A stretch of DNA of 64,000 nucleotides from Bacteroidia bacterium (GTDB lineage: Bacteria > Bacteroidota > Bacteroidia > Chitinophagales > JAUHXS01): NCBI GenBank assembly GCA_030426955.1, contig JAUHXS010000004.1:62001-126000 (forward strand). Reading direction: 5' to 3'. How positions within the stretch are numbered: position 1 is the first letter of the stretch; each line of letters opens with the position of its first letter. Of the stretch, positions 4,703 to 59,455 are shown piece by piece. The notes under the pieces are model-generated. The model ran no database searches. It had not been told where the DNA came from and worked only from the letters and a program-made list of their open reading frames with translations. A program made the translations under genes and the position numbers.

Positions 4703-4755
4703 TAAAAGTCTCTATTAGTATAATTTACTCGCCAATCTATCGTTATTTGTTCAAG

Positions 4756-41774: not shown

Positions 41775-42104
41775 TTGATCAAAGCGTCGAACTTTACTGA
41801 TACAGAAATTAGCCTAGCCAAGCTATCTAAAGCTTTAGCTCACCCTGCTAGAATTGCGATATTAAACCTATTGGCATCTAAAGAAAGTTGTGTTTGTGGT
41901 AATATTGTTGACGAATTACCTCTTTCTCAATCTACAGTATCTCAGCATCTTAAAGAGCTCAAAACAGCAGGGCTCATTAAAGGAACTATAGATGGCCCAA
42001 AAGTTTGCTACTGCATAGATCAAGACAATTGGACTCAACTCAAAAAGGAGTTTAAAAACTTTTTTGACTCTATTGAAATAGGTATTTTAAATAATTGTTG
42101 CTAA
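41775..42104 (+). CDS. arsR: ArsR family metalloregulator
   Basis: 109 aa winged-helix repressor, TTG start. The metal-sensing motif is [23 protein letters not shown] (about 37-59): a CxC just before the recognition helix, the classical alpha-3 As(III)/Sb(III) site. The protein ends in NNCC, which may add ligands. It is first in an arsR-arsM-arsC operon and follows a perfect palindrome; 10-bp overlap with arsM. Confidence 0.93.
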
Positions 42105-42955
42105 AATCATCATTTATGGATAAATCTCAGGAAATAAAAAACTTAGTAAAAGAAAAATACGGCGAAATAGCAGATCAGTCAAAAGAGGAAAATCTCAGCT
42201 CATGCTGTGGTGCGGGAGGGTGCTCTACAGTTGATTACACCATCATGAGTGATGATTATTCCAGTATTGAAGGGTATGAAGAAGGTGCTGATCTAGGTTT
42301 AGGGTGCGGTATACCTACTGCTTTTGCGCAAATCAAACATGGTGATACTGTTGTGGACTTAGGCTCTGGTGCGGGTAATGATGCTTTTGTTGCCAGAAGC
42401 TTAGTTGGCTCCAAAGGAAATGTGGTGGGTATTGACATGACACCTAAAATGATTGAAAAGGCAAAGACCAACAATGAAAAGCTAGGATATAACAACGTGA
42501 GCTTTAGGTTAGGGGAGATTGAAAAAATGCCCCTTAAGAATGATTTTGCCGATGTGGTCATTAGCAACTGTGTTCTAAATCTGGTACCTAACAAGGCAAA
42601 GGCTTTTGAGGAAATGTACCGAATCATTAAGCCAGGAGGGCATTTTAGCGTTTCTGATGTTGTACTGATTGGATCACTACCTAATCAACTTAAAGAAGCC
42701 AGTGAGATGTATGCAGGATGTGTCTCTGGGGCCATTCAAAAAGGAGATTATCTGATATTGCTTCAGCAAGCCGGCTTTGAAAACATCAAAGTTCAAAAGC
42801 AAAAAGAAATTGTCATACCTGATGATATATTATCTAACTACATGAGTAAAAAAGATATTGCTACGTATAAGGAAGATGGAACAGGGATTTTCAGTATTAC
42901 GGTATTTGGACAAAAACCACAAAACGCTTGTAAACCGGGAAGTGGTTGCTGTTAA
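42095..42955 (+). CDS. arsM: Arsenite methyltransferase ArsM
   Basis: 286 aa. The N-terminal Cys motif is SSCCGAGGC (about 30-38), then [12 protein letters not shown] (about 69-80), the SAM site [11 protein letters not shown] (about 88-98), and [11 protein letters not shown] with a further As ligand Cys (about 149). The tail is CKPGSGCC. The short bacterial ArsM form converts As(III) to methylated, partly volatile products. It lies between arsR and arsC. Some start ambiguity exists because another Met follows seven codons in. Confidence 0.94.
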
Positions 42956-42986
42956 TAATTATGAGGTTTAAAGTTATAAGTTATTT

Positions 42987-43400
42987 ATGAAGAAAAGGAT
43001 ATTAATACTTTGTACAGGAAATTCATGCAGAAGTCAAATGGCGGAAGGTTTTATGCGTGAACATGGCGGAGACAATTTTGAAGTGTTTAGCGCAGGTATC
43101 GAGACACATGGTGTTAATCCCAAAGCGATCAAGGTAATGCAAGAAGTAGGAATTGATATCAGCCATCATACCTCAGATAATATTGATCAGTTTACGGATC
43201 AAACTTTTGATTACATTATTACCGTTTGTGACAATGCTAATGAAAACTGTCCTTATTTCCCAGGGAAAGCCAATAGGTTACATCAAAATTTTCCTGATCC
43301 AGCAAAAGCAACTGGAACAGAGGAAGAAGTTTTAGATGCTTTTAGGCATACAAGAAATTTGATTAAGGAATTTTCTGTGTCGTTTTTTAAACATTACTAG
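42987..43400 (+). CDS. arsC: Arsenate reductase, thioredoxin-coupled LMW-PTP type
   Basis: 137 aa. The P-loop is CTGNSCRSQMAEG (Cys10, Arg16), and the redox pair is in VCDNANENCPYFPG (about residues 81-94), the Cys triad of S. aureus pI258-type ArsC. It reduces As(V) to As(III), which feeds ArsM. No arsenite efflux gene (arsB or acr3) is adjacent, so the operon appears dedicated to methylation. It converges with the integrase gene 7 bp away. Confidence 0.93.
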   Translation: MKKRILILCTGNSCRSQMAEGFMREHGGDNFEVFSAGIETHGVNPKAIKVMQEVGIDISHHTSDNIDQFTDQTFDYIITVCDNANENCPYFPGKANRLHQNFPDPAKATGTEEEVLDAFRHTRNLIKEFSVSFFKHY

Positions 43401-43407
43401 TTAAAAC

Positions 43408-44232
43408 CTAATAATCCAATGGGCTTTTAATACTCAAAAGCGCATCATTTGCAATGTGTGTGTAAATCAAAGTGGTAGTAATATTGCTATGTCCCAAAAG
43501 TTTTTGAATATGGGTTATACCAATTCCATCCTCCAATAAATGAGTAGCAAAACTATGCCTTAAAGTATGCAAAGTGGCTTTCTTTTTAACATTTGCCTTT
43601 CCTAATGCTCTCTTAAATAGTTGTCCAGCACTTTCTGCAGAATATTTTCCTCCTCGTTGCCCTTCAAATAAATACTCTTTTGGCTTGTACGCAATGTAAT
43701 ATTCTCTCAATAGCTTGAGTACTTTTTCAGACAGGATAGTATATCTATCTTTTTTACCTTTCGCACCCCTTATATGAATCAACATCCTTTCAGAGTCAAT
43801 ATCTATTTTCTTTAGTTCCAATAATTCTCCTATTCTTAAGCCAGCACTATAGATTACTGAAATAATTGCCTTATGTTTTAAATTATTGGTATTTTCCATT
43901 ATTCTTTGCACTTCTTTTTTACTCAAAACAATAGGCAATTTATTTTCTCTTTGAGTAACCTTTAAATACTCAAAAGGTATATTACGATGATATATTTCTT
44001 TATAAAACAGTTTTAAACCACCAACTATTTGCCTTTGATATGAGGCTGAAATACCCTTTGTATTGACCAAGTGGTAAATAAATTCAAATAATGCTTCATC
44101 AGAAATAGATTTAAACGGTTTACCCTTAAAATGTGATTTCACCATTAAAAGGTGTCCCTTGTAGCTATTGATCGTTTGCTTACTATAACGTTTTAACTCT
44201 AATATTTTCACAAATTCTGTAACTATATCCAT
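43408..44232 (-). CDS. Tyrosine recombinase (integron-integrase-like), proposed cassette integrase
   Basis: 274 aa. The SAM-like N-terminal core-binding domain (about 1-90) contains YSKQTINSYKGHL. In the catalytic domain, R133 is in SAGLRIGELL, the beta-hairpin Lys is about K158, H222 and R225 are in LHTLRHSF, H248 in LLGH and the nucleophile Y257 in LIYTH, so the full R-K-H-R-H-Y set is present. TLRHSFATHLLEDG and LGHSNITTTLIYTH resemble IntI, but by eye I see no IntI-specific insertion before the HxxR box, so it is closer in build to XerC/D. It diverges from the cassette array as intI does. A TACTTTTG -7 box lies only 4 bp before the ATG, suggesting a leaderless mRNA. Confidence 0.92.
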   Translation of the reverse strand: MDIVTEFVKILELKRYSKQTINSYKGHLLMVKSHFKGKPFKSISDEALFEFIYHLVNTKGISASYQRQIVGGLKLFYKEIYHRNIPFEYLKVTQRENKLPIVLSKKEVQRIMENTNNLKHKAIISVIYSAGLRIGELLELKKIDIDSERMLIHIRGAKGKKDRYTILSEKVLKLLREYYIAYKPKEYLFEGQRGGKYSAESAGQLFKRALGKANVKKKATLHTLRHSFATHLLEDGIGITHIQKLLGHSNITTTLIYTHIANDALLSIKSPLDY

Positions 44233-44330
44233 AAGCCAAAAGTAACTGAATTCAATCAGAAACTACAGATTAACTTGATATTTCAGTGTTAAAACGAAGT
44301 TTTTAGCTACATTTGGATTAACCATAAGTT
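44233..44330. promoter_or_regulatory. Candidate attI-like region with two outward promoters' -7 boxes
   Basis: 98 bp between the integrase start and the first cassette core GTT (44328-44330). Leftward, TACTTTTG (44244-44237) fits the integrase promoter -7. Rightward, TACATTTG (44308-44315) is a perfect TANNTTTG box about 12 bp before the first cassette and could be the common cassette promoter (Pc). No clear -33 element is at ideal spacing for either. The insertion point would be the GTT of ATAAGTTGCAAG. Confidence 0.5.
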
Positions 44331-44597
44331 GCAAGAAAAGTAGGCTTCGCTATTGGTTCTCCTTCCGAAGTGCGTTGCACTTCGAAATTCCCAAACCAAC
44401 TACTTTCCTTGCAACGCTTCACCATTCAAAAAAGGTGCGAAGCCGATTGCCTATATTAATAGTTACTCATCTTGCAACTGCCGTTTAAACGTAATTTCTG
44501 TATTCTCTTTTTTGAAACGCATTTTTACTCCTTTCATTTTTTCTTAACTTTCAGTCATGAAAAAATAAATCGTAAAACTACGTTTACACGGTGAAGC
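44328..44597 (+). repeat. ORF-free palindromic cassette R1, copy a
   Basis: 270 bp. The body starts GTTGCAAGAAAAGTAG and ends CTACTTTCCTTGCAAC, nearly perfectly self-complementary over 16 bp, with an inner stem around GAAGTGCGTTGCACTTC. The site part starts AACGCTTCACC and ends GGTGAAGCGTT, an exact 11-bp pairing. It contains a second CTTGCAAC near 44471. Copies with the same length lie at 47718 and 50311. A 64-codon frame inside is not credible as a gene. Confidence 0.85.
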
Positions 44598-44611
44598 GTT
44601 GCCATTAATTT

Positions 44612-45295
44612 ATGAAAAACATTGTCTACCTACTATTGTTATTACCAATCGGAATTTGTGCGCAAACAAAAAAGGATATTGAACCGAAAAATGAAAGTTA
44701 TATTACGACTGATTTATTTTCGCCATTTTATTTTCAAGGAAACACAAAAGGATTTAGTAATAACGGAACACCTCGTTGGCGAATTGGATATATAAAAAAC
44801 TTGAATACTAAAACAAAAATCGGAATAGATATTGGTTATGGAAATGCTAATAATTCCCTTATTCAAACATTTGATAAGTATTCGCTTTGGGAAATACGAC
44901 CTGAATATTACCACATAATTAATCCGAACAGAAAAACTTTAAAATATTTTTCTTTAGAGTTATTCTATTTAAATCAAAACGAGGAATTCGAGAATCAATC
45001 ATTTTTTTCGGAACAAAACGAATATCTGACATTTGACAGAGCTGATTACAATCGACAAAAAATTGGTTTAATACCGAAATTTGGAATGTTTGTAAATCTA
45101 TCTAACAGAGTTGGACTAAATTGGTATACTGGAGTTGGAATAAATTATAGAATAAATAGTTACGATAATTTTGTGAATCTAAGAACAAGGCAATTTGACG
45201 AAGAACATTTTTCACCTTATTACAGGAAAGAGGGAAATAAAATTGGAGTAGAATTCACAATTGGACTAAAAATATACTACCGAATAAAAAACTAA
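44612..45295 (+). CDS. Cassette gene: exported beta-barrel-like protein of unknown function
   Basis: 227 aa with a signal peptide (MKNIVYLLLLLPIGICAQ) and alternating strands ending KIYYRIKN, typical of a small outer-membrane barrel. It is the sole gene in a cassette that begins GTTGCCATTA (44598) and ends at the exact complement TAATGGCAAC (45293-45302). The stop codon is part of that arm. ATG is 11 bp after the cassette core. No relative recognised. Confidence 0.75.
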   Translation: MKNIVYLLLLLPIGICAQTKKDIEPKNESYITTDLFSPFYFQGNTKGFSNNGTPRWRIGYIKNLNTKTKIGIDIGYGNANNSLIQTFDKYSLWEIRPEYYHIINPNRKTLKYFSLELFYLNQNEEFENQSFFSEQNEYLTFDRADYNRQKIGLIPKFGMFVNLSNRVGLNWYTGVGINYRINSYDNFVNLRTRQFDEEHFSPYYRKEGNKIGVEFTIGLKIYYRIKN

Positions 45296-45488
45296 TGGCA
45301 ACAACGTATATAGCTCATAGCTGGACAGTTGCTTAATCGAAGTTAAGGCATATTTGGAAAGCCGCCAAATTTTTAAATTTGACGATTTCCAAAAAAAAAG
45401 ATAAATAGTAAAATTTAAAAATCTGGCTCGTCCTTAATCCGAAAATAATTTTATAATTTGCACGCTACGAGCCATATACAAGACCGTT
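45293..45488 (+). other. attC-like recombination site, cassette 2
   Basis: Left arm TAATGGCAAC then AAC and GTATATAGCTCATAGC; right arm GCTACGAGCCATATAC then AAGACC and GTT (45486-45488). The arms pair along most of their length around a central part of about 140 nt that itself has AT-rich hairpins. Confidence 0.75.
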
Positions 45489-45498
45489 ACCTACAATT

Positions 45499-45987
45499 AT
45501 GAAAATCCGCATTTTAACCATATTTCTGCTGACAATTGGAATAACCAATGCCCAAGAAAAATATTCGGAATTGATTATTGGTACGTGGGAATTTGACAAA
45601 AACTGTGATTTAAGAACAGACGCTGAAAAGAACGAATTTGAGGAAATTCCTTGGTGTCCACCATATACCGAAAACGGAACAGGATATCCGACTCGAACTT
45701 ATAAAAATGACGGAGAATATATCCACTATTTTACATCTGAACACATAGAATACGGAAAGTGGAAAATCAGAAACGGAAAACTAATTTTAAAGAATAGAAT
45801 ATCAAAACAAAACGCTGAATCAAGAAAAGAACTGATGGAAAGATTTTTAAAAAAAGGACTGATTTCAAAAGAATCTGACGGATTTTATTATCAAAAACCG
45901 ATTGAAATTGACATCAAAAGTTTAACTGAAAATCAACTCGAATTCGGAAATGAAAAAGTTTACTCGATTCACAAACGAATAAAATAA
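45499..45987 (+). CDS. Cassette gene: exported lipocalin-like protein
   Basis: 162 aa with a signal peptide (MKIRILTIFLLTIGITNAQ), then IIGTWEFDKN and later YGKWKIRNGKLILK, the pattern of small lipocalin-like 'GTW' proteins. Two or three Cys near 35-50 may form a disulfide. Cassette 3 begins GTTACCTACA (45486) and its closing arm TGTAGGTAAC (45989) is an exact complement. The site beyond that arm is not of the usual form but is an R1-type site joined by a small deletion. Confidence 0.72.
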   Translation: MKIRILTIFLLTIGITNAQEKYSELIIGTWEFDKNCDLRTDAEKNEFEEIPWCPPYTENGTGYPTRTYKNDGEYIHYFTSEHIEYGKWKIRNGKLILKNRISKQNAESRKELMERFLKKGLISKESDGFYYQKPIEIDIKSLTENQLEFGNEKVYSIHKRIK

Positions 45988-45988
45988 C

Positions 45989-46178
45989 TGTAGGTAACAC
46001 CATTCAAAAAAGGTGCGAAGCCGATTGCCTATATTAATAGTTACTCATCTTGCAACTGCCGTTTAAACGTAATTTCTGTATTCTCTTTTTTGAAACGCAT
46101 TTTTACTCCTTTCATTTTTTCTTAACTTTCAGTCATGAAAAAATAAATCGTAAAACTACGTTTACACGGTGAAGCGTT
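45989..46178 (+). other. attC-like site of cassette 3, a fusion to the R1-type site
   Basis: TGTAGGTAAC is followed directly by ACCATTCAAAAAAGG, where R1 has AACGCTTC before ACCATTC. From there to GTGAAGCGTT (46169-46178) it is the same as R1. The junction suggests that cassette 3's own site and the body of a neighbouring R1 cassette were lost together. Confidence 0.7.
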
Positions 46179-46200
46179 GTAGTGCATTTAAAGAAACGCC

Positions 46201-46743
46201 ATGATTACAGTTCAACATAGATTTTTAGACCACCAAATAAATCCAAAGACTGAAATACTGATAATCGGAACATTTAATCCCGAAACAGCGGACAATGACG
46301 CTGAATTTTTCTATGGACGCAGCAGAAACTATTTGTGGAGACTTCTTCCAACAGCCTTTGGCAAGACAGACTTAAAAGGTGCTTCCAAACAGAAAAAGTT
46401 GGATTTTATTAGGGAGTATAAAATTGACCTTACTGACCTGATTGAAGAAATTCAAGTTGATGAAGGTCAAGAAGCCAATTACTATGATGGCTACATTGAC
46501 AATAAAGTAACTCGATGGAAAAATATTACCGGACTCATTGACACTCTTCCGAACTTGAAAAGGGTTTGCTTTACGAGAAAAACCTTCTCTGATATACCGA
46601 ACATGAAAAAGCAACTATCAGAAATCCAAAAACATTGTGACAGCAAAGGAATTGCCTTCCAGGCTTTGACCACCCCTGCCAGATTTTACCGAGAAGACAA
46701 ACAAACGGAATGGACAAATTTTCTTTTGAATGGTAACAGGTAA
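46201..46743 (+). CDS. Cassette gene: uracil-DNA-glycosylase-superfamily-like protein
   Basis: 180 aa opening TEILIIGTFNPETADNDAEFFYGRSRNYLWRLLP (about 18-51). The IIGTF-P plus FYG-N-W pattern is common in UDG-superfamily glycosylases of the deoxyinosine/uracil type, where the first motif activates water and positions the flipped base. A matching C-terminal H-S motif is not obvious (PARFYRED near 155), so catalytic activity is uncertain. First of two genes in cassette 4, which starts GTTGTAGTGC at 46176. The end overlaps the next gene by 14 bp. Confidence 0.65.
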   Translation: MITVQHRFLDHQINPKTEILIIGTFNPETADNDAEFFYGRSRNYLWRLLPTAFGKTDLKGASKQKKLDFIREYKIDLTDLIEEIQVDEGQEANYYDGYIDNKVTRWKNITGLIDTLPNLKRVCFTRKTFSDIPNMKKQLSEIQKHCDSKGIAFQALTTPARFYREDKQTEWTNFLLNGNR

Positions 46744-47575
46744 AGAAACAAATACGATTTATTTTTCTGAAAAACTGCGATCTGATAAGCGTTTTACAAA
46801 GACTTGTAATGCTCTGACTGACATTCTTGACAAGCATTCCATAAAATACGACTTCTTAAAATCAACAAAAGATATTTGGTGCAGGGACTACATGCCAATT
46901 CAGACTGAAAAGGGAAAATTCGTCCAGTTCCGTTATGAACCCTCGTATTTAACAGACGACTTAGAACTTCAATCAGACCCTAAAGAAGTTTGTAAAGCCA
47001 ACCACATTAAACCTCAATTCTCTAAAATCAACCTTGACGGTGGCAATGTTGTGAATTGGTCAGATAGAGCAATTATTACTGACCGAGTTTTTGACGAGAA
47101 CCCAGAATACTCAAGTAAAAACAAACTGATTGCTGAAATTGAAAAACTTCTTGAAGTGGAGATAATCCTTATTCCACAAATAAAATCTGATATGACAGGT
47201 CATGCAGACGGAATGGTACGATTTGTTGACAAAAACACAGTGCTTGGAAATGACCGAGAAAAGGAGTTTAAATATTGGAAGAACGGAATTAGCCAAATCC
47301 TGAAAGAAAAAGGAATTGAATACATTGACATTCCGTTTCTTGACTACAAAGAAAAGAAATACCCCGACCATGCAATTGGTTGCTATGTGAACTATTTAGA
47401 AGTTGAAAATCTGATTGTGCTTCCAATATTTGAAACAGAGAAAAACCAAGACCAAGAAGTTTACGACAAGTTCAGAGAGATTTTCCCAGACAGAAAGATT
47501 GAGACGATTAATTACAACGAAATCGGACTTCATGGCGGTCTGTTGAACTGTACGACATGGACGATAAGAGACTGA
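46730..47575 (+). CDS. Cassette gene: agmatine deiminase / peptidylarginine deiminase family protein
   Basis: 281 aa of the PAD_porph/agmatine deiminase fold. DIWCRDYMP (about 47-55), NLDGGNVV (about 100-107), GHADGMVRF (about 155-163) and LHGGLLNCTTW (about 267-277) supply the Asp/His/Asp/Cys guanidino-processing residues. The catalytic Cys is about 274. It hydrolyses agmatine or a related guanidine compound. The GTG start is in the 14-bp overlap with the UDG-like gene. Cassette 4 closes just after it with GCACTACAAC (47590). Confidence 0.85.
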   Translation: MVTGKETNTIYFSEKLRSDKRFTKTCNALTDILDKHSIKYDFLKSTKDIWCRDYMPIQTEKGKFVQFRYEPSYLTDDLELQSDPKEVCKANHIKPQFSKINLDGGNVVNWSDRAIITDRVFDENPEYSSKNKLIAEIEKLLEVEIILIPQIKSDMTGHADGMVRFVDKNTVLGNDREKEFKYWKNGISQILKEKGIEYIDIPFLDYKEKKYPDHAIGCYVNYLEVENLIVLPIFETEKNQDQEVYDKFREIFPDRKIETINYNEIGLHGGLLNCTTWTIRD

Positions 47576-47589
47576 AAATGAATAAAAAC

Positions 47590-47720
47590 GCACTACAACA
47601 TTGTATAAGCGTAATGCGGGCTATACGGTTAAATTTGAGCATTTTTGCTCCTAAAAAACTTTGCGATGGGCGGACAGTTTATCACTCCGAAACCCCGCAC
47701 TACGCTTATACTTGACCGTT
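47590..47720 (+). other. attC-like recombination site, cassette 4
   Basis: Left arm GCACTACAAC, ATT, GTATAAGCGTAATGCGGG; right arm CCCCGCACTACGCTTATAC, TTGACC, GTT (47718-47720). The left arm is the exact complement of the cassette start GTTGTAGTGC at 46176. Confidence 0.8.
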
Positions 47721-47987
47721 GCAAGAAAAGTAGGCTTCGCTATTGGTTCTCCTTCCGAAGTGCGTTGCACTTCGAAATTCCCAAACCAACTACTTTCCTT
47801 GCAACGCTTCACCATTCAAAAAAGGTGCGAAGCCGATTGCCTATATTAATAGTTACTCATCTTGCAACTGCCGTTTAAACGTAATTTCTGTATTCTCTTT
47901 TTTGAAACGCATTTTTACTCCTTTCATTTTTTCTTAACTTTCAGTCATGAAAAAATAAATCGTAAAACTACGTTTACACGGTGAAGC
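47718..47987 (+). repeat. ORF-free palindromic cassette R1, copy b
   Basis: 270 bp, identical or nearly so to copy a at 44328 by reading side by side. It lies between the UDG/deiminase cassette and the cassette starting GTTACCACAC (47988). Confidence 0.88.
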
Positions 47988-48008
47988 GTTACCACACATT
48001 AGGAAAAA

Positions 48009-48800
48009 ATGAAAGTTAGACTTCTATTCATATTGATTTCAATTCTTTTTACCGAAATAGCACTTGGTCAAATAAGAAATGACAGCTTTTTTCAGCAACA
48101 TGATTTTGAAATGGCAAGGTTTGTTGGGATGAAATACAATCCCATTAAGGACGAGCTTGGAGAGCCTTATCATGCTGCAATCCTTGACACAACATTAATG
48201 ACAAGAACGCATTATTACAAAGTGGCGGTTAACAAAGATTCAATTGATTTTCAAATTCATTATGACAAAAACCTTTGGTGTAATGGTTTTTCTTTCATGG
48301 CTGACAGCCAAAAATATTCAGAAGAAATTTTAAGTTTTACCAAAGATTTTATCAAAACTGAAAAATGGTTGGTTTCTCCAAATAGATATTTAGTTTCGGT
48401 TCAAAACCTTGATGATGGACAAATATTTGTGCTTTTTAAAGCAACTGCCTATCCCATAATTCTTGCTCAACTTGACGCTATTGACTTCAATCTCAGAAAA
48501 GGGACAAAAGAGTATTCAAATTATCATATTGAACGGGCGGAGAGTGGTATTCGGGAAGTATATCAAACAATTCTCGCTGCTTCAACGATAAATAGTATAA
48601 CTAAAAGTGAACTGAATACTCTCACAAAAATTTACAAGACTTACACTGACATTCTCAACTACAATGGAGTTAAAATAAGCTTTATACAATATAATGAAAA
48701 TGTGTTTTTCAACTTAATCCCAAATGATGTAAAAAGCTTAAGGCATAGGTCAGTAGATGAAGTTGACTTTACCCAGATAGAAAATTTAGTAGCCTTTTGA
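48009..48800 (+). CDS. Cassette gene: exported protein of unknown function
   Basis: 263 aa with a signal peptide (about 1-20, ending ALGQ). The mature part is mixed helix/strand with no recognised motif. It starts 21 bp inside cassette 6 (GTTACCACAC at 47988) and overlaps the following GIY-YIG gene by 4 bp (TTGA), indicating translational coupling. Confidence 0.7.
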   Translation: MKVRLLFILISILFTEIALGQIRNDSFFQQHDFEMARFVGMKYNPIKDELGEPYHAAILDTTLMTRTHYYKVAVNKDSIDFQIHYDKNLWCNGFSFMADSQKYSEEILSFTKDFIKTEKWLVSPNRYLVSVQNLDDGQIFVLFKATAYPIILAQLDAIDFNLRKGTKEYSNYHIERAESGIREVYQTILAASTINSITKSELNTLTKIYKTYTDILNYNGVKISFIQYNENVFFNLIPNDVKSLRHRSVDEVDFTQIENLVAF

Positions 48801-49204
48801 AAAGTCAGTTTAAAATATCAGACCCTACCTTTTGGCAACAAATAAATTCGGCTTATCAAAATGGTGGTGGGATATATAAGCTGATATTAAAAGATAAATC
48901 GGATTTTCCTGTTCGAATTGGTAGGCTCTTAAAGAAAGACGAGAATGGAGTGCTATATATTGGGAAAGCTATTAGCTTTTTGGATAGGGTAATTGAACTC
49001 AAAAAATCACTTTCACCTGACCATTTCTCCTCGAAGCATGAATGTGGTGTTAGATTTAAAAGCTTTTTGAAAAATCATTTTGAATTTGAAAATTTATGGG
49101 TGGAGTTAATACAAACAAACGATATTGACCAATTGGAAATCGAAGAGCTTTTTAAATATGAAACTGAGTTCGGAGAGCTCCCTCCAATGAATAGAAGAAA
49201 ATAA
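48797..49204 (+). CDS. Cassette gene: small GIY-YIG-like endonuclease-fold protein
   Basis: 135 aa, TTG start in the 4-bp overlap. GGIYKLIL (GIY, about 24-31), GVLYIGKA (YIG, about 51-58), RVIELKKSL with the candidate catalytic Arg (about 64), and EELFKYETEFGELPPMN with the Glu and final Asn follow in the family order. GIY-YIG domains cut DNA. Pairing with an exported-protein gene is odd and the role is unknown. The cassette closes with GTGTGGTAAC, the exact complement of its start. Confidence 0.68.
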   Translation: MKSQFKISDPTFWQQINSAYQNGGGIYKLILKDKSDFPVRIGRLLKKDENGVLYIGKAISFLDRVIELKKSLSPDHFSSKHECGVRFKSFLKNHFEFENLWVELIQTNDIDQLEIEELFKYETEFGELPPMNRRK

Positions 49205-49208
49205 AAAC

Positions 49209-49245
49209 GTGTGGTAACAATGTATATAAAAAATAGGCGAAAAAG
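49209..49245 (+). other. Truncated attC-like site, cassette 6 (left half only)
   Basis: GTGTGGTAAC, AAT, GTATATAAAAAATAGGCG is a normal left arm, but no matching right arm with GTT follows before the next gene. The right half and the start of the next cassette appear deleted. Confidence 0.65.
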
Positions 49246-49355
49246 TAGTTTTAGTATTTTCTGCAATTACTTTTATTTGTTTAAACTGTTATTTAATTCT
49301 CTTCAACCCTACCAAAAATTATAAAAAAGCAATCAAAAAAATAAAAATAGGAAAC

Positions 49356-50054
49356 ATGAAAAAGATCTTTTGTATTACAATTACACTTTCACTTTTGGCA
49401 TCAAAGTCATACTCTCAGATTGATAAACTATATGACGATAAAAAATGGGAAATACATGCTCAATATGTAAATTTTTCATATAATGAAAACCCCTCTCAAT
49501 CAGAATCTTTTTCATTTATTAATCCTTTTGGAATGAGATTAGGTATTGACCAAGTTGGCACTGCCAAAAATCATTTTTATTGGAACCCTAGATTAGGAAT
49601 AGATGCGATTTGGGGGGTGTTACTAGGTTTGGTAACAGAGAATAAGATTAATGATTTTGACGCCTTTGACAGCTGGGGAGTTAGTAGTGGAATTCTCGGA
49701 CAATTTAATTGGACAAAAAATATTATTAGTAAAGACAATTTAGTAGTTGCTGCCGGAATCGAATTTGGAGATTATTCTACAGGAAGTTCTGGTTATCATG
49801 GTGGAATTGGTCCAAGTGTTCTAACTGATTACGCTATAAGTGAAAATATTGCTCTAGGAATAAATCTTTGGGCTTCAAAGTCACTTGCAAGTACAGATGA
49901 ACTCTCTAAGGGGATGTGGTTTTATGGAGTATTTCCTAGAATTTTATTTAAAAAAGGGTGGTTCATTCAACCAGGAGTAATGTTTACATCTGAAGAAAAT
50001 AATGAAAAGTATTCAAGGTTTGAAATAAATATTGGTAAAAAAATAGGGAATTAA
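49356..50054 (+). CDS. Cassette gene: exported outer-membrane-barrel-like protein
   Basis: 232 aa with a signal peptide (about 1-20) and Gly/aromatic-rich amphipathic strands ending EINIGKKIGN; no known family recognised. Its cassette start is missing: the closing arm (TTCTGCTAAC, 50120) predicts a start GTTAGCAGAA that is not present upstream. The preceding site is also half deleted, so cassettes 6 and 7 are fused. Confidence 0.7.
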   Translation: MKKIFCITITLSLLASKSYSQIDKLYDDKKWEIHAQYVNFSYNENPSQSESFSFINPFGMRLGIDQVGTAKNHFYWNPRLGIDAIWGVLLGLVTENKINDFDAFDSWGVSSGILGQFNWTKNIISKDNLVVAAGIEFGDYSTGSSGYHGGIGPSVLTDYAISENIALGINLWASKSLASTDELSKGMWFYGVFPRILFKKGWFIQPGVMFTSEENNEKYSRFEINIGKKIGN

Positions 50055-50119
50055 ACTTATTTGTAAAACCTCTTTGTTTTGTTACCAGTGAAACTAAACT
50101 AACAGAAATAAAATAACAC

Positions 50120-50313
50120 TTCTGCTAACACGGTATATAGCAAATAGGGCGTTCGGTGGTTTAGGAAAGTTCAGTGCTATTTACAAACACCGCCAAATCG
50201 TTGATTTGGCTTTTAAGAATGAATAAATTAAAAACAAAATACAACGATTTGGCTCAGAGCTAACCCGAAAGTTTATCGCTTTCCACTGCCCTACTTGCCA
50301 TATACTAAACGTT
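50120..50313 (+). other. attC-like recombination site, cassette 7
   Basis: Left arm TTCTGCTAAC, ACG, GTATATAGCAAATAGGGCG; right arm GCCCTACTTGCCATATAC, TAAAC, GTT (50311-50313). An inner AT-rich stem with two ATCGTTGATTTGGC/CGATTTGG-type repeats lies in the loop. Confidence 0.75.
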
Positions 50314-50580
50314 GCAAGAAAAGTAGGCTTCGCTATTGGTTCTCCTTCCGAAGTGCGTTGCACTTCGAAATTCCCAAACCAACTACTTTCCTTGCAACGC
50401 TTCACCATTCAAAAAAGGTGCGAAGCCGATTGCCTATATTAATAGTTACTCATCTTGCAACTGCCGTTTAAACGTAATTTCTGTATTCTCTTTTTTGAAA
50501 CGCATTTTTACTCCTTTCATTTTTTCTTAACTTTCAGTCATGAAAAAATAAATCGTAAAACTACGTTTACACGGTGAAGC
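50311..50580 (+). repeat. ORF-free palindromic cassette R1, copy c
   Basis: 270 bp, the same length and sequence as copies a and b by eye. It immediately precedes the first restriction-modification cassette, whose core GTT is at 50581. Confidence 0.88.
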
Positions 50581-50713
50581 GTTGTGTGTCATGCAAAAAC
50601 CCACCGCACAAATAGCACATTTGCAATTCGCACAAGCCGACTCACAAGCCAAAATTGCAAAAGAGCTATTTTCTCCCCTCGCTCCATTGACAATTGAATA
50701 ATTCTTTCTAAAT

Positions 50714-50731
50714 TTGACCTTTTTAAGTCAA
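50714..50731. promoter_or_regulatory. Inverted repeat upstream of the RM controller gene
   Basis: TTGAC, 8 nt, GTCAA, 17 bp before the ATG at 50748. Position and symmetry fit an operator (C-box) bound by the HTH controller protein encoded next; inferred, not shown. Confidence 0.5.
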
Positions 50732-50747
50732 GTCTGATTATGGTAAA

Positions 50748-51050
50748 ATGACACTAGGGCAAAAAATAAAGGAATTGAGAGAATCAAAAGGCATGTTACA
50801 GAGACAACTAGCTGCCAAACTTGAAATTGGTGACGGTTTTTTAAGCAAAGTCGAACATGACCAAAAAGCCTTAAAGCGAGAACATCTCAATTCCATCAGT
50901 AAAATCTTCGACTATCCATTGGAAGAACTCGAATCTTTATGGATTGCAACAAGAATTTATGAATTAGTCAAAGACGAGCAATCTGCACTTAACGCACTGA
51001 AAGTCGCAGAAGAACAAATAAAATACGGAAAAACACATGCCAAAGTATAA
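50748..51050 (+). CDS. Cassette gene: HTH-XRE protein, probable RM controller
   Basis: 100 aa. The helix-turn-helix covers about 1-60 (LGQKIKELRESKGMLQRQLAAKLEIGDGFLSKVE), with a helical tail. Small XRE proteins preceding a nuclease and a methyltransferase usually act as C proteins that delay endonuclease expression. It overlaps the next gene by 14 bp. The 165 bp before it in the cassette hold no gene; they carry CACAAGCCGAC-type sequence also seen at 56410. Confidence 0.83.
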   Translation: MTLGQKIKELRESKGMLQRQLAAKLEIGDGFLSKVEHDQKALKREHLNSISKIFDYPLEELESLWIATRIYELVKDEQSALNALKVAEEQIKYGKTHAKV

Positions 51051-52065
51051 TAGAAACATTGATGAACTAAAAGAAAATGCCGCTTTGTGGTGGCCAGAAG
51101 AATTGAAAAAGAAAAATTCTTTGGCAAATGTTCTTCCACTTCTCTTGAAAACTCAAGACGATTTTTTAAGCATTTTAAATTTGAGTAAAAAAGAACCTTT
51201 TCAGGTTTTTAAGTTAATTGACGTTGCAAAATTCCCAGGTAATCTATTTTTAAAGCACTTAGTTGTTCTATCTGATTATGGTGGTGAACCAATTCAGCGA
51301 CTTGGCCGCTCATTCAAAGACATTTTCCCAAAAGATAAAAAAGGAAATTACTTTATGGAGTTCCTTTGGAAAGGAGAAAAATTCAAATACACGTTTGAAG
51401 AACTTCCAGTAAAGGGATTAAATAACAAAAAACTTTACGTTGACGGAGATAATCTTTCAATCGAAACCGAACTAAACAGTTTAATGAAAGACATTATTGC
51501 AATTCTACTTTTTGCATCTACTTCTGATGCAGCAGACCAAGCAGCTTTGGATTCTTGTGAAATAGGAACTTTGCTAGGAAATGAAGAAGAACTTGCAAAT
51601 TTTGTCAAACAACGATACATAATCGTTAGCCGAATTACAGGTGGTGCTACAGCAAATAGTTTAGGTCAATTAGCTCAAACTGAAATAGTAGAATTTCTGT
51701 CAAATGTATTAGACGAAGACTATGAAATAGTAAGAAACGGTTACATCAATCTGAAAGGCTATGACAAGGGTGGTGGAATGCCGTTTGATATAGTTGTGAA
51801 ACGGAACGATAAAGCCGTAGGAATTGAAGTCAGCTTTCAAGTCACCACAAATAGTACGATTGAAAGAAAATCGGGTCAAGCTGCGGACAGATACAATTTA
51901 ATGCATAAGGATGGCTACAAAATTGCCTATGTTCTTGACGGAGCGGGTAATTTTCAGCGTTCTTCTGCAATTTCCACAATTTGCCAATTCAGTGATTGTA
52001 CTGTCGCTTACACCATAAGTGAGTTTAAGGTTCTTGCTGATTGGATTAAATCCGAACTGTCATGA
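51037..52065 (+). CDS. Cassette gene: probable type II restriction endonuclease, PD-(D/E)xK-like
   Basis: 342 aa. No named family recognised, but it lies between the controller and a C5-methyltransferase with overlaps of 14 and 4 bp. The segment MPFDIVVKRNDKAVGIEVSFQVTTN (about 248-272) has a D and an E-x-S/Q arrangement like a variant PD-(D/E)xK core in which the usual Lys is replaced. Recognition sequence unknown. The overlap ATGA couples it to the methyltransferase. Confidence 0.7.
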   Translation: MPKYNRNIDELKENAALWWPEELKKKNSLANVLPLLLKTQDDFLSILNLSKKEPFQVFKLIDVAKFPGNLFLKHLVVLSDYGGEPIQRLGRSFKDIFPKDKKGNYFMEFLWKGEKFKYTFEELPVKGLNNKKLYVDGDNLSIETELNSLMKDIIAILLFASTSDAADQAALDSCEIGTLLGNEEELANFVKQRYIIVSRITGGATANSLGQLAQTEIVEFLSNVLDEDYEIVRNGYINLKGYDKGGGMPFDIVVKRNDKAVGIEVSFQVTTNSTIERKSGQAADRYNLMHKDGYKIAYVLDGAGNFQRSSAISTICQFSDCTVAYTISEFKVLADWIKSELS

Positions 52066-53453
52066 TAAAATTTATAGACTTATTTGCAGGTACGGGCGGA
52101 ATTAGACTTGGATTTGAACAAGCTCTGAAAAAATTCGGAGTAAAATCAGAGTGTGTTTATTCCTCAGAAATAGATAAAAATGCTTGCCAATCATACGAGT
52201 TGAATTTTGGTCATAATCCATTTTCAGATATCACCCAAGTCAATGAACTTCCAAAGTTTGATTTCATGCTTGCAGGGTTTCCTTGTCAGTCATTTTCTTA
52301 TGCAGGAAAACAAAGGGGATTTGGAGATACAAGGGGAACCTTGTTTTTTGACGTAGAGCGACTTCTTAAAAAATACCGCCCAAAAGGATTCCTCCTTGAA
52401 AATGTTAGGGGGCTAACCACTCATGACAAAGGAAGAACTTTTGAAACCATTATAAATTCACTTCAAGCTCTTGGATATAAAGTAGAGTATCGATTGTTAA
52501 ATTCAAGCAACTTTAATGTAGCTCAAAACAGAGTTCGGATATACATACTCGGTATTCTAGAAGATGATTTTGAAATTAAAATCCAATCAGATACAGGAGC
52601 CGTTGACTCTCATAACTTTATTCAGAGAAATGGTCAAAGAAGCCTTTTTGATACTGAAAAAGACTTTACCGTAGTTAAGGACATTTTAGAAACCAAGCCA
52701 GACAAAAAATATTTTTGTAGTGAGACTTTTAGCAATCAATTAAAGAAAGTAATTGGGAATGATTTATCAAAACTCCACGGCTACAGACTTATCGACACTC
52801 GAAATGGAAATTCAATACATTCTTGGGAACTTGGAATAAAAGGAGAATGCACTAATGATGAAATCGAGTTTTTGAATCTGTTAATTGCAAATCGAAGAAA
52901 GAAGATATTTGGAACTCATCAAGACGGTAAAGCCTTGACAAAAGAGCAGATTCAAACTTTTTACACCAAAGACAATTTTGAGTCGGTTACAGCCTCATTG
53001 ATTCAAAAAGGATATCTGAGCAACTATGATGAAAAGTATAATCCAGTTTGCGGGAATATGTCATTTGAAGTATTCAAGTTTTTAGACCCTGAAAGTATTT
53101 CGATTACATTAACTGCTTCCGACACAAACAGACTTGGGATTGTTCAAAATGGAAAAGCAAGAAGATTGACACCTAGAGAATGTGCTAGACTTCAAGGTTT
53201 TCCTGACACTTATAAACTTTTAGACAATGACAATGCAGTTTATAAACAAATGGGAAATGCGGTTACAGTACCCGTAATTCAAGCATTGATAACTGACTTG
53301 ATAGAAAATAATGATTCAATTGTAGATAAAATAGCCAACGCTAAGTCATACACATTGGCAAGTCGCTCAAGCCTAACCCACGAGCCAAAACTTGCCAAAG
53401 AGTATGCCTTTGCCAGCGCTGAAGAAAAAGCACGAACACACAACATTGTATAA
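52062..53453 (+). CDS. Cassette gene: DNA (cytosine-5-)-methyltransferase
   Basis: 463 aa. Motif I FIDLFAGTGGIRLGF (about 4-18), motif IV GFPCQSFS with catalytic Cys75, motif VI ENVRGL, motif VIII QNRVRIYILG, motif IX RLTPRECARLQGFP, motif X QMGNAVTVPV. A long target-recognition region (about 190-330) lies between VIII and IX. It protects the host from the adjacent nuclease. The last codons run into the recombination site: AAC ATT GTA TAA encodes N-I-V-stop, so the site supplies the C-terminus. Confidence 0.93.
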   Translation: MIKFIDLFAGTGGIRLGFEQALKKFGVKSECVYSSEIDKNACQSYELNFGHNPFSDITQVNELPKFDFMLAGFPCQSFSYAGKQRGFGDTRGTLFFDVERLLKKYRPKGFLLENVRGLTTHDKGRTFETIINSLQALGYKVEYRLLNSSNFNVAQNRVRIYILGILEDDFEIKIQSDTGAVDSHNFIQRNGQRSLFDTEKDFTVVKDILETKPDKKYFCSETFSNQLKKVIGNDLSKLHGYRLIDTRNGNSIHSWELGIKGECTNDEIEFLNLLIANRRKKIFGTHQDGKALTKEQIQTFYTKDNFESVTASLIQKGYLSNYDEKYNPVCGNMSFEVFKFLDPESISITLTASDTNRLGIVQNGKARRLTPRECARLQGFPDTYKLLDNDNAVYKQMGNAVTVPVIQALITDLIENNDSIVDKIANAKSYTLASRSSLTHEPKLAKEYAFASAEEKARTHNIV

Positions 53454-53564
53454 GAGCAATAGCGGGTGAAGTAGTGAAATCAAGGTCATTGCATTTAATA
53501 AACTTTTGTGGTGGCGGACAGGTAATGGCCTTGAAATCCGCTACTGCTCTTATACTTGACCGTT
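53435..53564 (+). other. attC-like recombination site, cassette 9 (first RM cassette)
   Basis: Left arm AACACACAAC, ATT, GTATAAGAGCAATAGCGGG; right arm CCGCTACTGCTCTTATAC, TTGACC, GTT (53562-53564). The arm complements nine of the first ten bases of the cassette start GTTGTGTGTC (50581). Confidence 0.8.
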
Positions 53565-54499
53565 GCAAGAAAAGTAGGCTTCGCTATTGGTTCTCCTTCC
53601 GAAGTGCGTTGCACTTCGAAATTCCCAAACCAACTACTTTCCTTGGACTTACACTTCAAGGACAGGAAGAATGTAGTTTAATAGAACGTGCTTCTGTTGC
53701 TTCATGTAAAGGGGATTTAAACGAGACAGAATCTGCTCTCCGAGAACTAATCAAGGATTTCCCGAATCATAATCTGAGTGAAGAATTTAAACTGAAACTC
53801 GGTGAGACATTATATCAAAGTGGAAAGTATAACGAATCGAAAGAGTTACTATCAGAACTATTCGAACAAATCCCAGACACCACCCCAAGAAACTATGAAT
53901 TAATCAAATGTCCGACCAACTATGATTCTCAGTTTCCCGAAAGAAAATATGGGTGTTTAAGAATTGTCTTCCCTGAAGATAATATCCACATAAAGCATGA
54001 CATCCTTTTAGTTTTAAGTGACATCGCAATTCATGACAAAGAACCGAAGACTTCAATTGAATACCTTGAGTTAGCTAGCAGCAAATACTTTAAAAACAAC
54101 GGCTGTGGAAATGGAATAAATATGGTGGAAGGCTACCTTGCAATAAAGCTTGCTGAATCATACATGTTGGATAAGGACACGCTTAGTGCGCTGACCGAAC
54201 TCATCCCCCAAACTCGAAATTGGGATGCAGATTTAGATAGAATCAAGGAGTTGACTCAACAATGTATTTCAGCCCTATACACCGAAGAAGAAACTAAAAA
54301 AATCATACAAGAAGCATCCAGTTCACTGCATATTGAAGAGATTGAGAACACGGGAAGAACTTTCAAGGTATACAACTATCAACTTTTTGACAAGAAACTA
54401 CGATACACTACAATAAGGCCAGGTGATAATCAAACAGAAACAATTGACGACTTTAGGGAAAACCTTAGTAAACAATTAACCGAAGCACTAATTCAATAA
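53474..54499 (+). pseudogene. TPR-like protein, 5'-truncated and fused to a cassette site and R1 fragment
   Basis: The frame is open from a GTG at 53474, but the first 57 codons are the recombination site and R1 fragment. Real gene sequence starts after the junction near 53646 (LTLQGQEECSLIERASVASCKGDLNETESALREL). The remaining 285 aa have TPR-like helical pairs (about 60-230 of the chimera) and no start codon of their own near the junction. The predicted cassette start GTTGGGCGTA, deduced from the closing arm at 54509, is missing. Probably a decayed gene; a chimeric product cannot be excluded. Confidence 0.65.
53562..53645 (+). repeat. R1 fragment, copy d (body only)
   Basis: 84 bp matching the R1 body from GTTGCAAG to CTTTCCTTG, cut four bases before the closing CTTGCAAC is complete. 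It is followed by unrelated TPR-gene sequence, so a deletion removed the R1 site and the next cassette's start. Confidence 0.85.
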
Positions 54500-54508
54500 A
54501 AAAAAGCC

Positions 54509-54637
54509 TACGCCCAACAATGGCTAAGCAAACATGCTCGATGAACGTAAACATTCAAATATTATCTTTCAAACCAAATTCATCTTGGCGATGAAATTCG
54601 CGGTTTCAAACCCGCACTTCGCTTATACTTCACCGTT
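54509..54637 (+). other. attC-like recombination site, cassette 10
   Basis: Left arm TACGCCCAAC followed by AATGGCTAAGC; right arm GCTTATAC, TTCACC, GTT (54635-54637). The right side fits the consensus. The left inner box is less conserved than in other sites. Confidence 0.6.
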
Positions 54638-54718
54638 GAAACACATTCGGCAAAGCCGACCTTAATCCTTTCGTCCTCCTTCGTCGGACTTTCAGTCTTA
54701 AGGGAATGTGTTTCAATG
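54635..54718 (+). repeat. R2 fragment, copy a (body only)
   Basis: 84 bp from GTTGAAACACATTC to GAATGTGTTTCAATG, the same as the R2 body at 56050 and 59076. It then switches to unrelated sequence (CGACCAAAG) where the other copies read TCGAGCTAAAC. Confidence 0.85.
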
Positions 54719-54755
54719 CGACCAAAGACAACTAAGTGCATAAGTTTTATCATTT

Positions 54756-54785
54756 TCTATACATATTGATTTTTAAATGTATAGA
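54756..54785. promoter_or_regulatory. Inverted repeat upstream of the Fic gene
   Basis: TCTATACAT, 12 nt, ATGTATAGA, with a third half-site TCTATAC at 54797-54803, 44-90 bp before the ATG. The Fic protein has a C-terminal winged-helix part, so autoregulation at these sites is possible. Confidence 0.5.
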
Positions 54786-54846
54786 TTTTGTTGTTTTCTA
54801 TACAAAAGAAATTATCTTTGAATAGATTTTTAGAAATTCTTTACAT

Positions 54847-55917
54847 ATGACAACTTGGGGATTAACAGATTTGCCTTTAAACATTGATTTAGAAACAAAA
54901 AAGGTATTGAAGGCTCTGCCGGCAGCACATGCTGCATTAGCGGAATTAAAAGGTATTGCATCTACAATCCCAAATCAAAACATCTTAATTAACACGCTTG
55001 GATTACAAGAAGCAAAGGACAGTTCAGCAATTGAGAACATTATTACAACACATGACGACTTATACAAATCAGAATTAAACCTTGATGCTTTCAAGTCTCT
55101 TCAAGCCAAAGAAGTTCAGAATTATATTGCTGCCTTGAAGAAAGGATTTGAATTAATCACAAAAACGGAATTATTGACAAATAAGAGTATTTTGCAAATT
55201 CAAGAAATACTGGAAGATAACAAAGCTGGATTTAGAAAATTGCCAGGCACAGCATTGAAGAATGCAGCAACAGGTGAAACAATTTATACTCCACCGCAAG
55301 ATTATGATGAAATAATACGATTAATGGCAAATCTTGAACGCTATATCAATGACTCTGAATTACAAGACTGCGACCCATTAATAAAAATGGCAATTATCCA
55401 TTTTCAATTTGAAAGCATTCACCCATTTTATGACGGAAACGGTAGAACGGGCAGAATTATAAATATTCTTTATTTGATTTTAGAGAAACTCCAAACATTG
55501 CCAATTCTATATTTGAGCAATTATATCATTAAAAACAAACCGGACTATTATCACTTCTTGCAAAAAGTCAGAGACGAAAATTTATGGGAAGATTGGGTAT
55601 TGTTTATGATTAAAGGTGTTGAACAAACATCTAGGGAAACAATTGAATTAATCACTAAGATTAAGGAATTAATGCTTGACTACAAACACCGACTTCGTGA
55701 TAACTATAAGTTCTATAGTCAGGATTTGCTCAATAATTTGTTCAAGCATCCTTACACCAAGATTGAATTTATTGTCAATGACTTAGGTGTTTCAAGACTA
55801 ACAGCAGCGAATTATTTGAATAAACTGGCAGAAGATAAAATGCTTCGGAAAGACAAATTAGGAACTGGTAATTATTATATCAACGAGGAATTATTTGACT
55901 TATTGACAAAAAGATAA
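54847..55917 (+). CDS. Cassette gene: Fic family AMPylator-like protein (class II) with C-terminal winged helix
   Basis: 356 aa. The N-terminal Fic_N region has the inhibitory helix motif SSAIEN (about 59-64), matching (S/T)xxxE(G/N). The Fic core motif is HPFYDGNGRTGR (about 192-203), fully intact. The C-terminal part (about 290-356) looks like a winged-helix DNA-binding domain (YTKIEFIVNDLGVSRLTAANYLNKL). Fic proteins transfer AMP or another nucleotide to target hydroxyls; the Glu of the inhibitory motif restrains this. It is alone in its cassette. The closing arm CAGGTGGTAAC predicts a start that is missing upstream (replaced by the R2 fragment). Confidence 0.9.
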   Translation: MTTWGLTDLPLNIDLETKKVLKALPAAHAALAELKGIASTIPNQNILINTLGLQEAKDSSAIENIITTHDDLYKSELNLDAFKSLQAKEVQNYIAALKKGFELITKTELLTNKSILQIQEILEDNKAGFRKLPGTALKNAATGETIYTPPQDYDEIIRLMANLERYINDSELQDCDPLIKMAIIHFQFESIHPFYDGNGRTGRIINILYLILEKLQTLPILYLSNYIIKNKPDYYHFLQKVRDENLWEDWVLFMIKGVEQTSRETIELITKIKELMLDYKHRLRDNYKFYSQDLLNNLFKHPYTKIEFIVNDLGVSRLTAANYLNKLAEDKMLRKDKLGTGNYYINEELFDLLTKR

Positions 55918-55922
55918 ACGCA

Positions 55923-56052
55923 CAGGTGGTAACAATGTATATACAAAATAGGCGAAATGGTAGTAAATTCAAAGGTTGTAGCCCGCTTCAGCATCGTAAC
56001 GGTTTGATAAGTTTGATGCCCGAAATCGCCTACTTTGCATACACGAACCGTT
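55923..56052 (+). other. attC-like recombination site, Fic cassette
   Basis: Left arm CAGGTGGTAAC, AAT, GTATATACAAAATAGGCG; right arm CGCCTACTTTGCATACAC, GAACC, GTT (56050-56052). About 18 bp of the inner arms pair. Confidence 0.78.
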
Positions 56053-56397
56053 GAAACACATTCGGCAAAGCCGACCTTAATCCTTTCGTCCTCCTTCGTC
56101 GGACTTTCAGTCTTAAGGGAATGTGTTTCAATGTCGAGCTAAACCAAATTGCTTCTCCGCTACTCTCCTCTTGCTCGCCTTTGCCGGACTTCGAGTCAAA
56201 ACGTGTTCCAACAAAACGTTAAACGCAATTTGATTCCACATCTCGAACTTTTCAAATTACATAAGTTGAGTTGTTACGTTCATTCCATGAACTACAAACT
56301 GACAATGCTCAATGTCCAGCGGAAAGTATTTACATTTCGCATTGTCTATCAACTTTTGTAATTTTCGTTCTCAATGCGGAACTACGTTTAGCTCGAC
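56050..56397 (+). repeat. ORF-free palindromic cassette R2, copy b
   Basis: 348 bp. The body is GTTGAAACACATTC ... GAATGTGTTTCAAT, with a TCGGCAAAGCCGA inner hairpin. The site part starts CAATGTCGAGCTAAAC and ends with its exact complement GTTTAGCTCGACATTG at 56386-56401. Here the cores are AAT/ATT rather than AAC/GTT, a compensated change. Short reading frames inside are shared only with copy c and are unlikely genes. Confidence 0.85.
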
Positions 56398-56567
56398 ATT
56401 GGGCTTCATGTAAAAGTGCCGACACACAAGCAAAGAGTGCTATCGCACACATTGCTTTTTTGCCAACGCGCTGACTGAATAAAATTGTGAGTAATTCGAC
56501 CGACAGACCCAAGGAAAAAAGTCGTCATTTTGGTATCTTGCAAGATTAACTTAGGACAAGTAGATAA
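56398..56567 (+). other. Non-coding leader of the second RM cassette
   Basis: 170 bp from the ATTGGGC core to the methyltransferase ATG. It contains GCCGACACACAAGC and GCACACATTGC, similar to the leader of the first RM cassette. No gene seen. Its start is not complementary to the cassette's closing arm. Confidence 0.5.
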
Positions 56568-58912: not shown

Positions 58913-58945
58913 CCAACGCTGAAAACCAAGCAGAACGGAATAAAG

Positions 58946-59078
58946 CCAGCAGGTAACAATGTATAAAAATAATAGCGGTTTAATCGCTAAAACGAAAGTA
59001 AGTAAATATAAAAAAGGTCTGTGTTTAACCGAAAAATTAGTGCGTATAAACCCACTACTATTCTTATACTAGACCGTT
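58946..59078 (+). other. attC-like recombination site, second RM cassette
   Basis: Left arm CCAGCAGGTAAC, AAT, GTATAAAAATAATAGCGGTTTA; right arm TAAACCCACTACTATTCTTATAC, TAGACC, GTT (59076-59078). The inner arms pair with a few bulges. Confidence 0.78.
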
Positions 59079-59423
59079 GAAACACATTCGGCAAAGCCGA
59101 CCTTAATCCTTTCGTCCTCCTTCGTCGGACTTTCAGTCTTAAGGGAATGTGTTTCAATGTCGAGCTAAACCAAATTGCTTCTCCGCTACTCTCCTCTTGC
59201 TCGCCTTTGCCGGACTTCGAGTCAAAACGTGTTCCAACAAAACGTTAAACGCAATTTGATTCCACATCTCGAACTTTTCAAATTACATAAGTTGAGTTGT
59301 TACGTTCATTCCATGAACTACAAACTGACAATGCTCAATGTCCAGCGGAAAGTATTTACATTTCGCATTGTCTATCAACTTTTGTAATTTTCGTTCTCAA
59401 TGCGGAACTACGTTTAGCTCGAC
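59076..59423 (+). repeat. ORF-free palindromic cassette R2, copy c
   Basis: 348 bp, same length and sequence as copy b by eye, ending CGTTTAGCTCGACATT (core ATT at 59424). The last recognisable cassette repeat in the array. Confidence 0.86.
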
Positions 59424-59455
59424 ATTAGCAATAATCAAAATAGAATCCATCGAAA

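Follow-up and report, generated by a model that had tools for sequence, protein, structure and literature searches.

A compact integron-type recombinase without the IntI insertion, facing a cassette array in a Bacteroidia bacterium

The I2 part of the integron integrase IntI recognizes extrahelical bases, and the two together enable IntI to work on single-stranded substrates and prevent the second cleavage (PMC4792948). In the treatment of the integron-like subgroup by Smyshlyaev et al. 2021 (PMC8138268), the insertion is called essential for integron function, and that treatment describes no cassette arrays of insert-less members; the literature covered here is open access, and a description elsewhere may be missed. 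The stretch of DNA analyzed here (64,000 nucleotides, referred to as the window) encodes a recombinase that lacks this insertion next to what looks like an array of cassettes. The best reading of the sequences is a functional integron variant that would dispense with I2 and extrahelical bases. Specifically, positions 43408 to 59437 very probably represent a compact form of integron-type gene-capture platform, whose recombinase would excise cassettes and reinsert them at attI without I2 and mostly without extrahelical bases.

Recombinase sequence and structure

43408 to 44232, minus strand: compact integron-type tyrosine recombinase, 274 aa, without the IntI insert (open reading frame, profiles, alignment, structural model, and tree)

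This protein contains the full R133-K158-H222-R225-H248-Y257 set named in the original prediction, and these residues are invariant across 24 aligned relatives. In the alignment with IntI1 and with a true IntI of the same phylum, the IntI-specific segment (I2, patch III region) between the active-site lysine and the HxxR motif is absent. The R-to-H spacing is 89 residues, compared with 131 in IntI1, and the same value is found in nearly all measurable compact relatives (range, 84 to 92). The integron integrase profile TIGR02249 matches the protein in two stretches with a gap at the insert (183 bits; cut-off, 265). In the AlphaFold model (pLDDT 87, pTM 0.66), no additional helix separates H169-182 from H199-212; XerA (5hxy) and the Vibrio integrase (2a3v) have the folds nearest to it. 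Thus, the absence of an IntI insertion before HxxR, which had been read from the sequence with structure prediction and IntI1 alignment proposed as checks, holds in both of these comparisons, as well as in the split TIGR02249 match and the residue spacing.

The recombinase resembles XerA and the NF040815 family (NCBI name, "site-specific tyrosine recombinase/integron integrase") in its length and lack of an insert, and NF040815 is its top profile. However, it scores under the cut-off of that profile (210.8 versus 220) and adjoins a cassette array, and archaeal XerA falls outside the group formed by IntI and the compact recombinases. The XerC and XerD profiles give about 173 bits, against cut-offs of 330 to 335. 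A plain chromosomal XerC/D is ruled out by the profile scores and the tree; the same genome (G000) encodes separate XerC/XerD-like genes on contigs C11 and C9.

Many compact relatives (L006, L010, L019, L022, L023, L034, L039, and others) have open frames of 300 to 530 aa, which could reflect an N-terminal extension of some 50 to 250 residues, the starts having been picked mechanically. Directly past the 3' end of the window recombinase, at 41775 to 43400, are genes for an ArsR-like regulator, a methyltransferase, and a low-molecular-weight phosphatase family protein, possibly arsenic genes.

Organization of the array

The recombinase faces an array of about 15 kb, in which plus-strand genes extend from 44329 to about 59437 with attC-like sites between them. 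This divergent layout is the classical one. The array consists of the following units:

44329 to 44598, plus strand: gene-less cassette 1, 270 bp; attC 44477-44598, weak model score (11.8 bits)
44599 to 45486, plus strand: cassette 2, 227-aa protein without assigned function; attC 45294-45486, arm of 9, 34 bits
45487 to 46176, plus strand: cassette 3, 162 aa, weakly lipocalin-like; attC 46055-46176, arms TTACCTACA and TGTAGGTAAC, weak score (11.8 bits); tail common to the gene-less cassette
46177 to 47718, plus strand: cassette 4, 180-aa protein and PAD_porph-family enzyme (Pfam); attC 47591-47718, arm 9, stem 11, 77.5 bits
47719 to 47988, plus strand: gene-less cassette, 100% copy of 44329-44598, weak model score
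47989 to 50311, plus strand: cassette(s) 6, proteins of 263, 135, and 232 aa; intact attC 50121-50311, arm 9, 54.5 bits; a broken attC lies inside, near 49209-49250
50312 to 50581, plus strand: gene-less cassette, third 100% copy, weak model score
50582 to 53562, plus strand: cassette 8, HTH protein, BanI-type restriction enzyme, and C5 methylase (Pfam); attC 53436-53562, arm 8, stem 11, 89.6 bits
53563 to 54635, plus strand: truncated gene-less cassette fused to a TPR-protein cassette; attC 54510-54635, 39 bits
54636 to 56050, plus strand: Fic protein cassette (Pfam); attC 55925-56050, 43 bits
56051 to 59076, plus strand: second gene-less palindromic unit, then HpaII-type methylase and restriction enzyme (Pfam); attC 58949-59076, 74 bits
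59077 to 59437, plus strand: last copy of the second gene-less unit and array end (sequence repeat)

A covariance model built from 30 attC sites, all from other species, finds 11 attC-like sites in the window, all on the plus strand between 44477 and 59079, and none in the window outside the array. Seven of the 11 are strong (34 to 90 bits); the other four (about 12 bits) are the site copies of the gene-less cassette. The window sites contain complementary R''/R' and L''/L' boxes, and attC folds beat those of shuffled sequences on both strands (z, -2.9 to -4.7). Rfam searches give nothing above a gathering score in the array. In five cassettes, the cassette start is complementary to the bases ahead of its own R'' box, with arms of 8 to 9 bp (TTGCCATTA with TAATGGCAAC, TTACCTACA with TGTAGGTAAC, TTGTAGTGC with GCACTACAAC, TTACCACAC with GTGTGGTAAC, and TTGTGTGT with ACACACAAC). 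Such complementarity is expected if cassettes circularize at G/TT, the slash here and below marking the junction. Chance palindromes are ruled out as the source of the sites by the lack of model matches outside the array, the matching arms, and the co-occurrence of such sites with the recombinase.

The 270-bp gene-less cassette, whose insert is a nested palindrome, is found in this array only, in the three 100% identical copies listed above and in partial copies at 45998-46176 and 53563-53645; it might act as a promoter, a terminator, an RNA, or a parasite. The second gene-less palindromic unit repeats in the distal array (54636-54716, 56051-56411, and 59077-59437). It consists of TTGAAACACATTC..GAATGTGTTTCAA with a long GTCGAGC..GCTCGAC palindrome behind it, and its boundaries fit A/TT, not G/TT. 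Two complete type II restriction-modification systems are present as multi-gene cassettes, a BanI-type one at 50582-53562 and an HpaII-type one at 56568-58912.

Insertion site and candidate promoters

44233 to 44328, plus strand: attI region; insertion point G44328/T44329, AACCATAAG/TTGCAAG, with equivalent breakpoints in relatives
44237 to 44244, minus strand: TACTTTTG, possible -7 box of the recombinase, 4 bp ahead of its ATG
44308 to 44315, plus strand: TACATTTG, possible Pc -7 box toward the array, same position in L012

The first cassette begins at this attI, at 44328/44329. Both boxes of the original prediction are present where it placed them: TACTTTTG 4 bp ahead of the recombinase ATG, and the array-facing TACATTTG 13 bp ahead of the first cassette base, which is 12 bp ahead of the G in G/TT. 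With a density of TANNTTTG in the window of 0.51 per kb per strand, finding one per strand in the 96-bp gap has a p of about 0.002, as calculated post hoc. In the closest relative, L012 (protein 70% identical), both are kept at nearly the same positions, the array-facing box 13 nt ahead of the boundary and the recombinase box 5 nt ahead of the ATG (4 in the window); neither is found in L013 or L014.

The usual spacing between the -7 and -33 elements is 17 to 23 bp in Flavobacterium and Bacteroides. In the window, neither box has a -33 TTG at this spacing, the nearest TTG being 30 nt upstream of the array-facing box and 8 nt upstream of the recombinase box. There is no clear family-wide enrichment of TANNTTTG upstream of the recombinase start (5/72, versus 19/432 background windows). 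The earlier reading stands as regards the compact recombinase and attI, which are strongly backed by the alignment, tree, attC model, polarity, and G/TT breakpoints. A Pc role of TACATTTG and a leaderless promoter at TACTTTTG, with one 8-base box each and conservation in L012 only, are plausible.

Cassette boundaries in related loci

L054 and L055 share 98.7% identity across a 9-kb stretch that contains the recombinase and attI, and they split just past ACGAGAG/TT. Their identity resumes exactly at a later junction, in front of TTGGGCGCAATT and behind different attC sites. This is the trace expected of different cassettes inserted at attI before an older shared one. L022 and L024, as well as L020, L029, and L037, also break at the attI G/TT. 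Breakpoints at this position, together with the rejoining at a later G/TT, indicate that cassettes move. The comparisons of L080 with L086 and of L085 with L087 show contig ends or general divergence only. Within the window itself, the identical cassette copies are the sole sign, and a hint, of movement.

Structure of the sites and possible mechanism

The attC sites differ between the two kinds of enzyme. In true-IntI attC sites of the same phylum, the L arms contain one to three extra single bases (GCGTTTCAAG versus GCGTTT-AAG). In contrast, the arms of compact attC sites are of equal length and carry fixed substitutions (GGTTTGGCG versus GGCTTGGCG; CAATAG versus CAGTAG). By matched criteria, a single-base bulge is found in 14 of 139 compact sites (49 loci) but in all 30 true-IntI sites (11 loci), with a p of 7e-23 that is nominal because sites of the same array are related; in the same samples, A/G- or T/C-type mismatches are found in 114 of the 139 and 2 of the 30, respectively. 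None of seven window sites has extrahelical bases in the stem, and the compact-site model has no matches in 258 kb around true IntI. Since I2 recognizes extrahelical bases, the compact enzyme and its sites lack both halves of one contact.

In the proposed mechanism, the compact recombinase would excise cassettes as circles, with G/TT joined to the cassette's own R'' side and the R''/R' pairing thereby extended. The circles would be reinserted at attI, probably via a folded single strand. Neither excision nor reinsertion would involve the I2 helix, and extrahelical bases would mostly be absent. Strand choice could then come from two features of the attC stem, its unequal R-L spacers and its conserved mismatches of the A/G (A.C or G.T) and T/C types. 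Transcription into the first cassette may start from the Bacteroidota-type promoter box that ends 13 bp ahead of the insertion point.

Both strands of the attC sites fold, which counts against a sure single-strand substrate. Alternatively, the recombinase might act on duplex attC and attI by a Xer-like two-strand exchange, as in dif/pdif modules, the palindrome providing paired binding sites only. The lack of an I2 helix and, mostly, of extrahelical bases would fit such a route, as would the fact that XerA and IntI are alike the nearest solved folds. However, R'' and R' are complete only across the circle junction, the stem sequences differ while the pairing stays, and the fixed mismatches and unequal spacers would provide a polarity that duplex sites do not need. 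The duplex exchange therefore appears rather unlikely, and reinsertion of folded cassettes at attI is the preferred reading.

Distribution among Bacteroidia

Relatives of the recombinase, with identities of 70 to 35%, are encoded at 80 loci of public genomes, chiefly from Bacteroidota; many of these loci are from metagenome bins, whose labels may be wrong. The attC model matches in 41 of 88 loci searched, a count that is not independent of the model, as some of the loci gave training sequences; the window and the genome survey are independent of it. There are 117 sites 3' of the recombinase on its strand and 18 sites 5' of it on the opposite strand, with one exception, so that strand polarity is consistent in 135 of 136 sites at 41 loci. 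In most compact relatives, recombinase and array share a strand, with the array on the 3' side. Other loci of the divergent classical layout (L012 to L016, L021, and L089) fall in the same clade as the window (98/99 support).

Across 246 evenly sampled genomes of the class Bacteroidia, compact recombinases were called at a profile E value of <=1e-60, a cut-off reached neither by the G000 XerC/D nor by the true IntI found in G017. They are found in 138 genomes (about half), and attC model matches in 191 (E<=1e-4). Compact recombinase and attC-like sites occur together in 130 of the 138 carriers (Fisher, 9e-13). IntI profile matches are found in 58 of 198 genomes of a phylum sample, all but one of them outside the class. 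Another compact recombinase, with attC sites 3' of its gene, is encoded elsewhere in the window genome (C20:121-3483), which has further attC-like sites at C6:651-780, C22:584-715, C22:14291-14420, and C11:496798-496905. A plasmid of Chryseobacterium sp. SNU WT5 (L148, 7770-16466) carries a compact recombinase and at least four attC-like sites, indicating that the system also exists in a mobile form.

In 61 of the 246 genomes, attC-like sites occur without a detected compact recombinase; these may be remnants, assembly gaps, or the sites of another enzyme. Such genomes would suit the view that the array is a relic, or was moved by a separate true IntI, and that the neighboring recombinase is a bystander Xer-like protein. 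That view is very improbable: the window genome lacks a true IntI at E<=1e-45 and has its separate XerC/XerD-like genes, the compact sites differ in type from IntI sites, and polarity and breakpoints are centered on the compact recombinase. Movement of the array by a true IntI in particular is ruled out by the lack of one in the genome at this threshold and by the site type.

Phylogeny

In the tree, the compact recombinases and IntI group together against XerA, XerC, and XerD (100/94), the compact clade (96/96) being the sister of the true IntI clade (100/100). No compact sequence falls inside IntI, and the compact clade takes in three sequences that had been retrieved by the XerD profile. As the Xer outgroups lack the insert, a single gain of I2 on the IntI stem would be the simplest history, one that depends on the root set by these outgroups. 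The compact clade could instead consist of IntI proteins that secondarily lost both the insert and the extrahelical bases. The root comes from Xer outgroups only, among which two archaeal XerA proteins are weakly placed (93/63), leaving some room for such a loss. Nevertheless, the separate, supported clades, the insert-less outgroups, and the absence of compact sequences inside IntI make it distinctly unlikely, and gain of I2 by IntI is the favored history.

Association with tet(X)

The tigecycline resistance gene tet(X) shows links to this family. In Acinetobacter, tet(X3) has as its neighbor the gene of TnpF (tpnF), a member of the compact clade (100/98). The resistance gene lies 3' of TnpF on the same strand, behind an attI-like G/TT junction, ..CACTTG/TTATGTGCC (L147, pJAT2044, 2619-4747). 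In plasmid p1681-tetX of Empedobacter falsenii (L242, 157-1487), tet(X) forms a perfect compact-integron cassette, TTATGTGCC..tet(X)..GGCACATAAC followed by a compact attC (78.6 bits; E, 6e-17). In pHN13R-tetX4 of Escherichia coli (L243, 2030-4180), the cassette pattern ends just past GGCACATAA, upstream of ISVsa3. The spread of tet(X3) in Acinetobacter has been attributed to ISCR2 in a paper that discusses tpnF and does not mention integrons; unlike the window recombinase, TnpF is truncated in most published isolates (PMC7722449).

Relation to known integrons and implications

The compact kind shares with IntI integrons (class 1, Vibrio chromosomal, and those of phylum members outside the class) an attI beside the recombinase, insertion at G/TT, attC boxes of the form RYYYAAC..GTTRRRY with unequal spacers, cassettes of one polarity, and, in the window, the divergent layout. 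It differs from them in lacking I2, in arms without extrahelical single bases, in forming a separate sister clade, and in the position of the array in most relatives. The reverse-oriented integrons mentioned for Spirochaetota (PMC9668308) likewise have the recombinase on the strand of the array; however, they have IntI, and the window layout is divergent. Complete integrons have been described as almost absent from Bacteroidetes proper, in connection with Salinibacter ruber (PMC9024848).

The co-variation of enzyme and sites, the breadth of the family, and its sister relation to IntI go beyond the original prediction. It is fairly likely that compact integrons are an I2-less sister lineage of all known integrons and the main type of the class; that attC-like cassettes and attI preceded I2 and extrahelical bases, which would have arisen together in IntI; that the lineage was overlooked because searches rely on the IntI insert; and that it was as a cassette of this lineage that tet(X) joined the mobile resistome.

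If true, this would add to the known integron cargo a large pool of mobile genes, including restriction systems, Fic proteins, and tet(X). How the I2 domain or the attC sites were selected before the other existed has been posed as a chicken-and-egg problem (PMC4792948). A present-day sister lineage that has cassettes but lacks I2 and, largely, extrahelical bases would resolve this problem and would be directly assayable. As about half of the species sampled in the class have the compact kind, the origin of integrons becomes a testable question.
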